Shown here in pieces: positions 3,538-9,037 of a stretch of 49,040 nucleotides of DNA. Both the position numbers and the translations under genes were made by a program. The notes under the pieces were generated by a model. That model saw nothing but the letters and a program-made list of their open reading frames with translations. It was not told where the DNA came from and did no database searches. Position 1 is the stretch's first letter. The number at the start of each line of letters is the position of its first letter. The stretch comes from an uncultured Candidatus Saccharibacteria bacterium (GTDB lineage: Bacteria; Patescibacteriota; Saccharimonadia; Saccharimonadales; Saccharimonadaceae), in contig CAMVAM010000008.1 in the NCBI GenBank assembly GCA_947165465.1, positions 1 through 49,040 on the forward strand, written 5' to 3'.

Positions 3538-3816
3538 ATGGATATTAAAAACGTCACCGGCATCGGCCCATACGAATTAAAAACCGAAGAAAACCGTGAA
3601 CTATATTTTAAAGACGAAAAAGTCTTTCTTGTTAAAAACAAGAACACCATCGAAGTCCGCACGGACCATGAACTTAGCAAACTCCTGAAAGAAAAATACG
3701 AATCCGTCATGGAATCGCGTTATTTTGGTCGTGGTGGCATTGAAATCGTTCTCGCCGGCCAACTCTCAACCAGCGAACTAGAAGATCTCGTCCGCTTAAG
3801 TTACAATCTTAGCTAA
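3538..3816 (+). CDS. YjbR/MmcQ-like small protein
   Basis: A 92 aa protein. The C-terminal half (a charged helix, then a segment ending in EDLVRLSYNLS) resembles the end of the MmcQ/YjbR family, whose members close with a similar Ser-Tyr motif. The N-terminal part matches the lysine-rich strands of that fold but is short; typical members are about 110-120 aa. MmcQ/YjbR proteins have a CyaY-like fold and are often called DNA-binding, without a firm role. It is the third gene of the argS-orn operon and converges on the acyltransferase gene, overlapping its end by 4 bp. Confidence 0.6.
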   Translation: MDIKNVTGIGPYELKTEENRELYFKDEKVFLVKNKNTIEVRTDHELSKLLKEKYESVMESRYFGRGGIEIVLAGQLSTSELEDLVRLSYNLS

Positions 3817-4874
3817 ACTAGATAATCTTTAACTAACGGAATCTTGTTCAGCACTGCTGAAATTGTTAATGATATCGCGAAAATAATAATCGCAATTAGT
3901 GGCACTGATAAAACTGGGTTTAACGATAATGAATTGAAGTTTAGGAAATGATCAAGCATATATAGTATTAAAAGATGAATTAGATATGCTCCAAAACTAC
4001 AATTTGATAAGAACAATAACATCTTCTCTTTCTTTTTGTTTTTAAATGGTTTGTTTAAATGTAATTTAGCGAAAACAAACACAGCGACACTCATTAATAA
4101 CACATTCACGGTTAAATTATCATAATAATCCGAAACCGGTTTGCCTTGCCTGAGTGAGACGAATAGCGAGAATAGTATTGTAAATAGTGCGCCGGCTATC
4201 CCAAGCACGTAAAGCCAGACTTCTTTTCTTTTCTCGATTCTCGTCGTGTTTAATAAATATCCGAGCACAAAGTATCCGGAATAACCAATCACAAAATTCA
4301 TCTTTAATGCCGTCGACACGCTTTCAATTAAACTTGCCGGCATTTCTGCTTTAAGACCAATGATATTAACTAACTCTGGCACCAAGAATGAAAACACAAA
4401 AGCAAGCGCTACAAAATACCACGCTAGCTTTCTATTCTCGACAATCTTCTTAAGAAGTGGACTAATCATATAAAGCCCGATAATCATATATATAAACCAT
4501 AAATGTGCGTGCCCATTCACTACCGCAATTAAAAAGTCTTCGCTAGATGTAATCTCATTCGTCACGAATCTTTGCCACAAAGCATAAATAATAGACCAAA
4601 AGAACAGAGCAACGACAAGTCTCAAGATATTTTTCTTAAAAATCTTTTTAATCTGATGCTCTTTTCCAAGAAAAAGTGCTCCACTTATCATTACAAATAC
4701 CGGCACACCCCATCTCATCAAACTATCAAATACATTAAATGTTTGCCATTCAAATGTATTTGCAGGTGTGAAATACCAGTTTTGCGCTGCCACGTGGAAC
4801 ACCATCACCGCAAACATCGCGAACAATCTAAGATAATCAAAATAGACAATTCTGGTTTGCGCCGAGTCTTTCAC
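3813..4874 (-). CDS. Integral membrane acyltransferase (acyltransferase family 3)
   Basis: Predicted multi-pass enzyme transferring acyl groups (often acetyl) to cell-surface glycans, like OatA or exopolysaccharide O-acetyltransferases. The N-terminal segment has FDYLRLFAMFAVMVFH, with the conserved Arg and His of the family near residues 15-25. About ten hydrophobic helices follow through residue 350. There is no C-terminal SGNH domain. The start codon is GTG, 3 nt after the mscL stop, so translation is probably coupled to mscL. The acceptor is unknown. Confidence 0.85.
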   Translation of the reverse strand: MKDSAQTRIVYFDYLRLFAMFAVMVFHVAAQNWYFTPANTFEWQTFNVFDSLMRWGVPVFVMISGALFLGKEHQIKKIFKKNILRLVVALFFWSIIYALWQRFVTNEITSSEDFLIAVVNGHAHLWFIYMIIGLYMISPLLKKIVENRKLAWYFVALAFVFSFLVPELVNIIGLKAEMPASLIESVSTALKMNFVIGYSGYFVLGYLLNTTRIEKRKEVWLYVLGIAGALFTILFSLFVSLRQGKPVSDYYDNLTVNVLLMSVAVFVFAKLHLNKPFKNKKKEKMLLFLSNCSFGAYLIHLLILYMLDHFLNFNSLSLNPVLSVPLIAIIIFAISLTISAVLNKIPLVKDYLV

Positions 4875-4877
4875 GAA

Positions 4878-5288
4878 TTACTTCTCTTCTTTTTTAGCTT
4901 CTTTCTCTTCACGATGGCGGTTAAGTCTATTCATCGCCTTCACAATGAGGAAGATCACCCATGCAATGATGAGGAATTGAATCACGTTCTGGATAAAGCT
5001 ACCATAACGAATCACTGCTTCATCGCCCGTGCCAAAGAAATTTGGAATCGTAATGACGAGACCAGTAAAATCAACACCACCGGCAATCAAACCAACAATT
5101 GGCATCACGATGTCATTTACCAGGGAATTAACAATTGCTGTAAAAGCACCACCTACGGCGACACCTACAGCGAGTTCTACCACCGAACCGCGATTAATAA
5201 ATTCGATAAATTCTTTCTTAAACCCGGAACTCTTCTCATGTGCTGCGCGCAATTTTTCTTTTGCCTTCTCAGATTTCTTTTCTGCCAT
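4878..5288 (-). CDS. mscL: Large-conductance mechanosensitive channel MscL
   Basis: Homopentameric stretch-activated channel that vents solutes during hypo-osmotic shock. The N-terminal [20 protein letters not shown] segment (about 23-42) is the S1/TM1 signature. TM1 runs to about residue 65 and TM2 is at about 92-115. The charged C-terminal bundle is Lys/Glu-rich. Length 136 aa is typical. An unusual feature is the very charged extra N-terminus (about 20 residues) before S1. A GAAAGGAG ribosome site lies just upstream. It is cotranscribed with the acyltransferase. Confidence 0.95.
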
Positions 5289-5299
5289 TTGGCTCCTTT

Positions 5300-5914
5300 C
5301 TACTTTGTTTCTGAGTAATTATTAAATAGTTCGTATAGATTTCCTAAGCTTTCGTATGGTGTGCCAAGAATCTCTTTTAGCGACTGATCTGAAGTCGCCC
5401 TATTGATGGCCTCCATTTCGGCTTGAAGTAAGGAAATCTCATACACCATTTTATGCGCAAAAATCCGATCTAGCATTCCATTGATTTTTGCTTCAAATAA
5501 TTCATCATGCAAAGTCTGTTGTGCAGTTTCGGCTTTTGATTTTGCCTTTTTCGATTCCGAGCCACTCTTGTAAGAGTATTTAGTCTTCATGTAATCAACT
5601 AGGCTACTATCAAAATTTGTGAGCACTGTATTAAAAGATGCAGCGTTCGCTCTTAAAGATGTGTCCTTAATATACTTTTGAAAATTCTTAACCTCAGCGC
5701 TCGTACCGTCAGCATGCAGTTTTAGCGTAATCGCTAAATCTTTCACGCTTTTTTTATTGCCGGAAACAATCGAGCCAAAGATAATAATACCAATTACTGC
5801 GACCACGCCAATCAGCACGAACTTCATAATCGGGGAAGCGAAAATGCTCGGTTTTGGTGCTTTTGGTGGCCTAACATTATTAGAGATTTGCGAGAGATAC
5901 TCTTGTTGGTTCAT
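5300..5914 (-). CDS. Hypothetical single-pass membrane protein
   Basis: A 204 aa protein of unknown function. Residues 1-25 are Pro/Lys-rich and cytoplasmic, a membrane helix lies at about 28-50 ([19 protein letters not shown]), and the remaining 150 residues are a helical, charged domain rich in Lys, Ser and Leu with no recognised motif. The ATG is fixed by a -10 box 6 nt upstream inside a perfect palindrome shared with the dnaG promoter. It is followed by mscL after 11 bp and may head that operon. Conserved CPR membrane protein is the best label. Confidence 0.7.
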
Positions 5915-5932
5915 GCTATAATTATAGCATGA
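5911..5932. promoter_or_regulatory. Perfect 22-bp palindrome holding two divergent leaderless promoters
   Basis: The 22 bases are identical to their reverse complement. They contain TGC-TATAAT on the plus strand (-10 at 5917-5922) and the same on the minus strand (5926-5921); the two -10 boxes overlap by 2 bp. Each lies exactly 6 nt before an ATG: dnaG at 5929 and the membrane protein at 5914. Both ATGs are part of the palindrome. Confidence 0.75.
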
Positions 5933-7563
5933 ACGATGCGAAGGAGGAAATTAAATCTCGGCTTAGCATTGAAGATGTGGTTGGGCGTTATGTGGAGCTG
6001 AAACGAGCCGGCCGAAACTTAAAAGGCCGTTCGCCTTGGGGAGTAGACAAAACTCCGAGTTTTATGGTTTCACCGGAAAAAGGAATCTGGCATGATTTTT
6101 CCGCCAACAAAGGCGGTGATATTTTCACCTTCATCATGGAAATCGAAGGCATCGGGTTTAAAGACGCTATGGAAAAACTTGCCACCGAAGCCGGTGTAGA
6201 TTTATCCAAATATCGTGGTGGCGACGCAAACGTTACCAAACGCAAAGTCCGCGCTAAAGAAGCTCTCGACCTCGCTACGCGTTTTTACCAAGCCTGTCTC
6301 GCTCGTGACAAAAAAGTTTGCGAATACGTTTTTTACAAACGAAACCTCAACCGTAATACTGTTAAAGAATTCAAAATCGGTTATTCACCGGCTAGTGGCA
6401 AAGCCCTCTATGATGCGCTGAAAAAACGTGGCTTTTCTGACCAAGAATTAAAGGATGCCGGACTTCTTAACCAATACGGCAAAGACATGTTTAGAGACCG
6501 CATGATGATTCCGTTCATCGATACTACCGGCAACATCATCGGTTTTACCGCCCGCATTGTCGGCCAAGGTGAACCAAAATATTTGAACACCCAGGACACT
6601 ATTCTCTTCAACAAGTCTCGTTTCATCTTCGGGCTTCATAATGCCAAAGAGGCCATCAGGAGAAGTGGCTATGTTGTAATTGTCGAAGGCAACATGGATG
6701 TGATTTCGTCTCATCAGGCTGGCGTCAAAGAAGCCGTCGCGACTTCCGGCACCGCCATGACCGAACAACAATTAAAAGCACTCGCAAATCTCACTTCGGA
6801 TATTCGCCTCGCTTATGATGGCGATGCAGCCGGCATTAAGGCTACCGAGCGCGCCATTATGATTGCCGGAGACCTCGGTATCGACCTCACCGTTATTTCC
6901 GACTATCATGGCGCCAAAGATCCGGACGAGCTCATCCAAAAAGATCCAGCCCTTTGGCAACAAGCCGTCGAAGAACGCGTTCCGGCTGTCGACTGGCTCC
7001 TGAATAAATATGAAGAAAACTTGAACCTCCGTCTCGCTCCAGACAAGAAAAAGTATTCCGATGTTGCTCTAAAACTTCTTGGCTACATTAAAGACGAAGT
7101 CGAGCGCGCCACCTACGAAGAAAAGGTCGCAAAAAAGCTCGGCATTGAAGTTGAAATTCTCCGTGAAAAAGGGAAACGCCTAGACGATAAACTAAAAGAA
7201 GCCAACGAACATAAATTCTTAAAGAAGCCAAAGACTACTGTCATCCCAAACCACATTCAGAAACTAGAAGACAGCCTACTTGCCTTAAAGCTCTTTGGTG
7301 GCGTCACAAAAACGAAAATCCCTCTAGAAGTTCCGGAAGATGAAACCAGAATCAGCGAACTAGAGCTCATCTTTACCGCAAATCACGAGAATGTTAAAGA
7401 ACCAAACTACGAAAGGGAAGCTGCCGACCTCATGGCTCGCTACAATGCCGAAGTAAGAACCGCTCGCATCAAAGAATTGAACGAAAAACTAGCCAGTCTA
7501 GACGATTCATCCGATGAATATTTGCGGGTCCTGCAAGAGATTACTGACTTGCAAAAATCTTAA
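5929..7563 (+). CDS. dnaG: DNA primase DnaG with degenerate zinc domain
   Basis: Makes RNA primers for replication. The N-terminal domain keeps the fold context (GRSPWGVDKTPSF, then HDFSANKGGD) but the four Zn ligands of the usual CPFH...CxxC are replaced by S35, G38, D56 and A59. The TOPRIM catalytic core is intact, with EGNMD near 252 and YDGDAAG near 297. The C-terminal DnaB-interaction region runs to 544, somewhat short of the usual about 600 aa. It is expressed from a leaderless divergent promoter, and rpoD follows after 21 bp. Loss of the zinc site is read directly; its effect on template recognition is inference. Confidence 0.94.
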   Translation: MNDAKEEIKSRLSIEDVVGRYVELKRAGRNLKGRSPWGVDKTPSFMVSPEKGIWHDFSANKGGDIFTFIMEIEGIGFKDAMEKLATEAGVDLSKYRGGDANVTKRKVRAKEALDLATRFYQACLARDKKVCEYVFYKRNLNRNTVKEFKIGYSPASGKALYDALKKRGFSDQELKDAGLLNQYGKDMFRDRMMIPFIDTTGNIIGFTARIVGQGEPKYLNTQDTILFNKSRFIFGLHNAKEAIRRSGYVVIVEGNMDVISSHQAGVKEAVATSGTAMTEQQLKALANLTSDIRLAYDGDAAGIKATERAIMIAGDLGIDLTVISDYHGAKDPDELIQKDPALWQQAVEERVPAVDWLLNKYEENLNLRLAPDKKKYSDVALKLLGYIKDEVERATYEEKVAKKLGIEVEILREKGKRLDDKLKEANEHKFLKKPKTTVIPNHIQKLEDSLLALKLFGGVTKTKIPLEVPEDETRISELELIFTANHENVKEPNYEREAADLMARYNAEVRTARIKELNEKLASLDDSSDEYLRVLQEITDLQKS

Positions 7564-7584: not shown

Positions 7585-8559
7585 ATGAATTCTAATAGTG
7601 ATGATATTTTGAATCCGAGTGATTTATCACTCGACTTTGACGAGCCTGAATCTTCTGATCTTGAAGATGAAGAAGAGTTCTCTGATGAGGACCTCGCCAT
7701 TACTGCCGAAAATGTGGATGCATTTGCGGACGACTCCGTTCGTCTCTACCTCCGCGAAATCGGTAAAATCCCGCTACTGACTCCAGAAGAAGAAGCCGAC
7801 CTTGCTCAGCGCATCGTTAAAGGTGATAAAAAAGCCAAGGACAAAATGGTCGAATCCAACATGCGTCTCGTCGTTTCCATCGCCAAGCGTTATGGTGGCC
7901 GTGGCCTCGATTTTCTCGATTTAATCCAAGAAGGTAATACCGGCCTCCTCCGTGCCGTTGAAAAATTCGACCCAGAAAAAGGGTTTAAATTCTCGACCTA
8001 CGCCACTTGGTGGGTCCGTCAAGCTATTACCCGTGCCATCGCCGATCAAGCTCGTACTATTCGTATTCCTGTTCACATGGTTGAAACCATCAACAAAGTC
8101 CTTCGTACTACCCGTAAACTCACTTCCGAATTAAACCGTGAGCCGACCAATGAAGAAATCGCGAAAGAGCTCGATATGGAGCCAGAAAAAGTCGATTATG
8201 TCATGCGCATTAAGCAGGACATTGCATCTCTCGATGCTTCCGTCGGACGTGAAGGTGACGACGAAGATTCCGTACTTGGTGATTTTGTCGAAGACGAAGA
8301 ACGCGACTCTCCAGAAGACTCCGCTGCCAACCAGATTTTGAAGGAACAATTATCCGAAATCATCGCCACCCTCACTGATAGGGAACAAAAAATCATTCGC
8401 CTCCGCTTTGGTATTGGCGGTGGTCGTCCACACACTTTGGAAGAAGTTGGTAACGAATTTGATGTCACTCGCGAACGCATTCGCCAGATTGAGGCCAAAG
8501 CCCTCTCGAAACTTCGCAAGAATAAAGACACCAAAAAACTACACGAGTATTTAAAATAG
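7585..8559 (+). CDS. rpoD: Primary RNA polymerase sigma factor (sigma-70/RpoD)
   Basis: Housekeeping sigma factor. An acidic N-terminus (1-45, Asp/Glu-rich) replaces a full region 1.1. Region 1.2 begins near [14 protein letters not shown] (about 52). Region 2 spans about 90-175, with [12 protein letters not shown], the [14 protein letters not shown] -10-reading helix and RTIRIPVH. Region 3 follows, and region 4 has the helix-turn-helix [18 protein letters not shown] near 290-310. Length 324 aa is short, as in other compact primary sigmas. The dnaG-rpoD order is the classical macromolecular synthesis arrangement, but rpsU is elsewhere (20554). Confidence 0.95.
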
Positions 8560-8566
8560 GAGGTAT

Positions 8567-9037
8567 ATGTTAAAGAAAATCGCACTAGCACTCACCGCAC
8601 TCGTACTGGGAGTTGCAACTTTTGCCACACCGGCCCCAGCCATGGCTTCTGATGGTCCTAGTCAACATAGCAATTCCAGCCATTCTAGCACCCCGAAAGA
8701 AAATACTACGAAAACTGCAATTTTAAAAACCTGCGCCAATGACAATGGCCAAGGAGACGGTATTAAGTGTCTTTTGAGACAAGGCCTCGAAATATTGTCT
8801 TACGTAGTCGGTGCTCTTGGTTTTGCGGCACTCGTCTTCGTTGGTTTCCAATATCTCACTGCCGGTGACAATGAAGAGCAAGTTAAAAAGTCCAAACGCC
8901 GCATTGTCGAAATTGTCGTCGGTGTCGCTCTGTTCCTCCTGGCAAATGTTATTGTTCAATGGCTTACTGGTGACGACCCAACCTCGTATTACAACAACGG
9001 AGGATCATCCCAGCAAGGTGATGGTGCTACTAGATAA
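8567..9037 (+). CDS. TrbC/VirB2-like pilin (CPR T4SS-pilin type)
   Basis: A 156 aa secreted or membrane protein. A signal peptide covers about residues 1-27 with an APAMAS end. A Ser/Asn-rich linker with two Cys follows (about 57 and 66). Two hydrophobic helices at about 75-98 and 112-132 flank a short charged loop (GDNEEQVKKSKRR), the hairpin layout of VirB2/TrbC pilins and of the CPR family called T4SS pilin. The C-terminal tail is Gly/Ser/Asn-rich. A strong AGGAGG precedes the ATG. No VirB4 or VirD4 lies nearby, so any secretion partner is elsewhere. Confidence 0.75.
   Translation: MLKKIALALTALVLGVATFATPAPAMASDGPSQHSNSSHSSTPKENTTKTAILKTCANDNGQGDGIKCLLRQGLEILSYVVGALGFAALVFVGFQYLTAGDNEEQVKKSKRRIVEIVVGVALFLLANVIVQWLTGDDPTSYYNNGGSSQQGDGATR

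Follow-up and report, generated by a model that had tools for sequence, protein, structure and literature searches.

A 26-bp palindrome between dnaG and a divergent membrane-protein gene in Candidatus Saccharibacteria very probably holds two interlocked leaderless promoters

In the DNA of a gut Candidatus Saccharibacteria bacterium analysed here (the window, a stretch of 49,040 nucleotides), dnaG and a divergently oriented membrane-protein gene are separated by only 14 nt, which are the entire intergenic DNA between the two start codons and lie within a perfect palindrome. How two transcription units can be started from so little DNA, and why this DNA is symmetric, are the questions raised by the locus. 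The palindrome, GTTCATGCTATAATTATAGCATGAAC as read directly from the sequence, consists of the halves GTTCATGCTATAA (from 5909) and TTATAGCATGAAC (to 5934), with the dyad between 5921 and 5922 (Table 1). The first-pass annotation had described a perfect palindrome of 22 bp at 5911–5932; the perfect symmetry is real but extends two bases further on each side, to 26 bp at 5909–5934. Its other observation, that both –10 boxes, both TGN extensions and both start codons stand in two-fold symmetry, can be read directly in the sequence: on the forward strand TGC TATAAT (5914–5922) is followed, after 6 nt, by the dnaG ATG at 5929, and on the minus strand the mirror TGC TATAAT (5929–5921) is followed, after 6 nt, by the ATG of the divergent ORF at 5914.

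Table 1. Features of the dnaG locus (positions in the window; promoter elements and start points are predicted).
Feature	Position	Strand	Basis and remarks
Acyltransferase 3 family gene, third in the leftward unit	3813–4874	–	Pfam Acyl_transf_3; 3-nt gap after mscL
mscL, large-conductance mechanosensitive channel	4878–5288	–	Pfam MscL, E 7.8e-37
204-aa membrane protein, first gene of the leftward unit	5300–5914	–	Conserved in relatives
Perfect 26-bp palindrome	5909–5934		Sequence; longest perfect palindrome in 420 kb
20-bp interlocked core CATGCTATAATTATAGCATG	5912–5931		Genus-wide form CATNNTATAATTATANNATG, 102 sites in 59/174 genomes, 0 in reversed control
Start codon and predicted +1, divergent membrane-protein gene	5912–5914	–	Conserved start and N-terminal M..xYL in 58 loci
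TGn extension (TGC) of the forward –10	5914–5916	+	Genome-wide T(–15) 0.94, G(–14) 0.85 at leaderless starts
Putative –10 element TATAAT for dnaG	5917–5922	+	6 nt before ATG; genome-wide peak at 6–7 nt; invariant in interlocked relatives
Putative –10 element TATAAT for the divergent gene	5921–5926	–	2 bp common with the forward –10; same tests as forward –10
TGn extension (TGC) of the reverse –10	5927–5929	–	T pairs with the A of the dnaG ATG; sequence and promoter profile
dnaG start codon and predicted +1	5929–5931	+	ATG start conserved in relatives
dnaG, DNA primase, 544 aa	5929–7563	+	Pfam DNAG_N, Zn_ribbon_DnaG, Toprim
rpoD/sigA, primary sigma factor, downstream of dnaG	7585–8559	+	Pfam sigma-70 r1.2, r2, r3, r4; best PDB match SigA

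Both flanking ORFs are judged from their sequences to be real genes, dnaG by its Pfam matches and its partner by the start and N-terminus conserved in relatives, a Pfam scan of the 204-aa protein having matched no family. A wrongly assigned start codon was rejected, the dnaG start and N-terminus being conserved throughout the genus. The sigma factor encoded beside dnaG contains a conserved region-3 stretch of 13 residues that is common to SigA, and in E. coli it is region 3 of sigma that reads the TGn motif. No functional link of dnaG–rpoD with mscL is obvious. Among other features of this neighbourhood, the zinc-ribbon domain of DnaG (residues about 29–75) is without its cysteine ligands (RSPWGVDKTPSF...IWHDFSANKGGD), a loss seen also in the more distant relatives L130, L132, L135 and L136, with the Pfam CHC2 zinc finger still matching. 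A Shine-Dalgarno-like AAGGAGGAA lies just inside the coding sequence (5941–5949, dnaG codons 5–7) and is common in relatives; it encodes a conserved KEE, so that the likeness may be a coincidence. Directly after rpoD, on the same strand, a small T4SS-pilin/TrbC-like membrane protein is encoded (8567–9037).

Genome-wide counts of the start signal were made in 420 kb (420,764 bases, in stretches) of a genome of ~785 kb, with 380 ORFs given by a simple ORF caller. An exact TATAAT precedes the ATG at a distance of 6 nt in 46 cases and of 7 nt in 20, with 0 to 9 cases at any other distance up to 39 nt, and the start codon that follows TATAAT and six further nucleotides is ATG in 46 of 47. The profile of 68 such leaderless-type starts consists of T at –15 (94%), G at –14 (85%), TATAAT, and A or G at the fourth base, and no –35 signal was seen in it. 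TATAAT at 6–7 nt before ATG is the general start signal in this genome. At sigma-70 promoters a leaderless transcript requires a –10 element whose last base lies 7 nt before the A of the ATG, and leaderless transcription is the natural reading of a TATAAT found genome-wide at this distance.

At the dnaG locus this signal occurs twice, with the 6-nt distance typical of leaderless genes on both sides. The two –10 elements, on opposite strands, overlap by 2 bp (TATAATTATA), the kind of overlap by which bidirectional promoters are defined, and TGC precedes both of them, so that by sequence each qualifies as an extended –10, as in the genome profile with its TG and no –35. The predicted start points, 5914 and 5929, are 15 bp apart. 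In each TGn, the T is paired with the A of the opposite ATG and the G with the base preceding that ATG. Two consensus promoters stacked 15 bp apart are a near-perfect palindrome by construction. This design leaves free only the base at –13/–2, which is the n of TGn, and the second codons outside the ATGs; in this genome both happen to match, so that the palindrome reaches 26 bp.

The palindrome is the longest perfect one in the 420,764 bases, where the next longest measures 22 bp, and first-order Markov simulations (3 × 420 kb) gave none above 20 bp. Its core, searched as CATNNTATAATTATANNATG, occurs 102 times (summed forward matches) in 59 of the 174 genomes of the genus, many of these sites being orthologous and so not independent. 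The reversed core pattern gave 0 matches in the same 174 genomes, as did a control pattern in which the core is flanked by CTA and TAG instead; a chance palindrome in AT-rich DNA was rejected on these counts (0 in both controls against 102). Across the order, among 393 sampled genomes, the core was confined to this genus and a single further genus of its family. A looser pattern of two –10s with two mismatches allowed is not discriminating, with 166 matches against 140 in its control. Start-codon gaps of 14, 20 and 22 nt were counted genus-wide, and two other consensus-compatible overlaps are rare, with 10 sites for a gap of 20 and 6 for a gap of 22. An assembly artefact was likewise rejected: the same palindrome is found in an independent assembly (L080, DnaG 90% identical), in which the 24 bases TTCATGCTATAATTATAGCATGAA recur together with the G and C that flank them, and variants of it are found in dozens of others.

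An ORF of at least 40 codons opens on both sides of the core at 76 of the 84 sites read out, which represent 15 distinct gene pairs. Of these, murC/tsaE leads with 29 sites, followed by ung/tdk with 14 and an aminoacyl-tRNA-synthetase-like/ABC-transporter-like pair with 10, and galE-like/sugar-transferase-like and tpiA-like/HAD-like are among the others; some of these names come from Pfam scans and the remainder from a reading of N-terminal sequences. In this genome the core has three copies, at dnaG, ung/tdk and murC/tsaE. The ung/tdk copy, flanked by functionally related genes for uracil-DNA glycosylase and thymidine kinase, is the identical 20-mer (G000:C4:23685-23704; L075 1501-1520).

The bases next to the start codons bear on whether both promoters are in use. 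At ordinary starts the base at –1 is T in 66%, C in 28% and A in 4%, and the base at –14 is G in 85%, T in 10% and A in 4%; at interlocked sites, –1 is C in 82%, A in 18% and T in less than 1%. The –1 base of one gene thus mirrors what the opposite promoter needs at –14, which points to both promoters being constrained at the same base pairs. A separate observation concerns the A preceding ATG at interlocked sites genus-wide: it is one-sided at 31 and never present on both sides, where about 3 two-sided cases would be expected, as though TGn could be lost from one promoter but not from both.

These constraints weigh against a reading with a single genuine promoter, in which the reverse –10 would arise as a side effect of the symmetric TATAAT and transcription of the other gene would begin at a different site. 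In E. coli, –10 symmetry alone does give divergent transcription at many promoters (PMC12825309). Here, however, the –1 base at interlocked sites follows the –14 requirement of the opposite promoter, and in relatives with a wider gap between the two genes a separate TGn-TATAAT stands at the ATG of each, so that a single promoter with a fortuitous mirror image is considered highly improbable.

A second question is whether the symmetry itself is selected, as it would be if a dimeric regulator of both units used the palindrome as its operator and the promoters were secondary. Perfect dyad symmetry over 26 bp is typical of operators, and the identical 20-mer is present twice in this genome. An operator would be expected to show symmetry also at positions that the promoters do not need, and such symmetry was not found: judged by the two bases before the ATGs, 18 of 87 sites are fully symmetric against 16.8 ± 3.6 expected with the sides shuffled, and among 30 core-bearing dnaG loci a complementary free pair is seen 7 times where 11.7 would be expected, the –10 and TG positions at these same loci being invariant or nearly so. 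Moreover, the core stands between at least 15 different gene pairs, and TGn-TATAAT together with ATG explains nearly every invariant position. The free base is symmetric no more often than by chance, so exact symmetry is not selected, which argues against a regulator site. That suggestion of the first-pass annotation is not upheld, and we consider an operator very unlikely. The symmetry that it expected in close relatives holds for the –10s and the two ATGs but not for the free base, since L080 keeps the palindrome and L079 and L134 have C for G on one side.

Template switching is a mutational process that can correct near-palindromes, and it might have perfected the symmetry here with no selection on the promoters. 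The second codons do match in this genome (AAC/AAC), and at dnaG the symmetric pairs 10–12 lie slightly above expectation (17–19 against 12–13). This excess, however, tracks start-codon offsets common to related genomes, the free base nearest the core has no excess symmetry, and the process would leave unexplained why the symmetric sequence is always two promoters plus two ATGs; we therefore give it hardly any weight. Judged from these sequences, the symmetry is a consequence of stacked promoters and not a target of selection. An RNA hairpin or terminator was also rejected, since with starts at the ATGs only half of the palindrome would be transcribed in either direction and no hairpin would form.

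Nearly all relatives retrieved with DnaG belong to Candidatus Saccharibacteria, and ruminant guts are their main source. The divergent partner is retained at 58 loci, counting the present one; 27 of them are interlocked and the other 31 separated, by 37–190 bp, nearly all of the separated ones having a TGn-extended –10 at 6–9 nt from the ATG on both sides. At the interlocked loci the crossed –10s are fixed and the start-codon gaps are 14, 16, 17 or 18 nt; 21 of the 27 have one start codon or both at 8–9 nt from the –10, so that some transcripts may have leaders of 2–3 nt. In the DnaG tree all interlocked loci fall, alongside separated ones, in one clade of 39 rows (support 99/91), and the two states require 10 changes. 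One gain followed by several separations would be the simplest reading of this tree, and several independent gains at dnaG could also have occurred. Two genomes (L092 and L096) have lost the membrane-protein gene, with its ATG altered, yet they retain TATAATTATA, and mscL is next in line; we read this as a natural promoter-capture event, in which the reverse promoter would have been kept in use for mscL.

Taken together, sequence, geometry, the genome-wide start signal, conservation and recurrence indicate that the palindrome very probably holds two interlocked divergent promoters, each starting RNA on its gene's own start codon, and we hold with considerable confidence that the element is a 20-bp interlocked bidirectional leaderless promoter. 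Overlapping divergent leaderless promoters, as first proposed for this site, find strong support in the genome-wide statistics, the relatives and the other gene pairs, all of it from sequence comparison. RNA polymerase with the primary sigma factor would recognise TGn-TATAAT without a –35 element and begin transcription at the A of the ATG, 7 nt downstream of the –10. Here two of these promoters would point in opposite directions, their start points spaced by 15 bp. At this spacing the –10s cross with a common central AT and each makes up most of the 6-nt spacer of the other; the –1 C of either gene is also the –14 G of the opposite promoter, and its +1 A is the –15 T of that promoter. Since each open complex would cover the –10 of the other promoter, the polymerases are predicted to exclude each other at the open-complex stage, so that each binding event would give either a dnaG–rpoD transcript or a membrane-protein–mscL transcript. 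The 5′ ends, leaderless translation and mutual exclusion are what we infer from this arrangement.

Bidirectional promoters and leaderless genes are each already known. In E. coli and Salmonella, bidirectional promoters (Warman, Middlemiss, Grainger; PMC12825309, PMC10268837) likewise have overlapping –10s with dyad symmetry, are enriched between divergent genes and load polymerases that exclude each other, an exclusion predicted here from geometry; their start points are 7–25 bp apart, a range that includes the 15 bp predicted here. Those promoters, however, are pseudo-symmetric and have been studied with –35 elements, while the present element has two full-consensus –10s with TGn and no visible –35, and contains both start codons, at the predicted start points. 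The optimal start-point spacings in E. coli are 18, 10 and 23 bp (PMC12825309), so that 15 bp, with crossed –10s that have 2 bp in common, is not one of the optima. At five E. coli bidirectional promoters basal transcription was too low for competition, which appeared only on activation, and promoter occupancy tracks activity except at perfect-consensus promoters, which bind polymerase unusually tightly (PMC12825309). With perfect extended –10s and no –35 here, neither competition nor its absence can be assumed, and the exclusion predicted from geometry is not taken to mean that dnaG and the mscL operon compete.

In the leaderless genes of Actinobacteria and Deinococcus-Thermus (PMC3160421, PMC3898074, PMC12340547), as here, a TATAAT-like signal lies ~6–7 nt before the ATG, with no Shine-Dalgarno signal and no leader (predicted in our case); here, unlike there, two starts use one common –10 region. 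The Deinococcus-Thermus paper on leaderless genes does not mention divergent or bidirectional sharing. In the openly licensed literature no report was found of leaderless promoters in Saccharibacteria, nor of a 20-bp fusion of bidirectional and leaderless promoters recurring across a genus, and for the latter an unseen report is possible. What appears to be new is this 20-bp fusion, with both start codons inside and the 15-bp spacing.

The locus is a very compact divergent control region, in which 14 intergenic bp serve two units, one of them with DNA primase and the primary sigma factor, and it shows the form that two consensus leaderless promoters take when fully stacked. It is conceivable, though rather doubtful, that this genus has repeatedly evolved the crossed leaderless promoter with its 15-bp spacing as a specific regulatory device, in which occupancy of one direction would silence the other and hold the gene pair in a fixed ratio without a regulator, with the sigma factor from dnaG–rpoD feeding back on both sides. 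Interlocked and separated relatives are natural pairs for measuring polymerase competition at bidirectional promoters. The arrangement also gives a clean sequence rule, by which –14 of one promoter sets –1 of the other gene, and it aids the placement of gene starts in a group of mostly uncultured bacteria.
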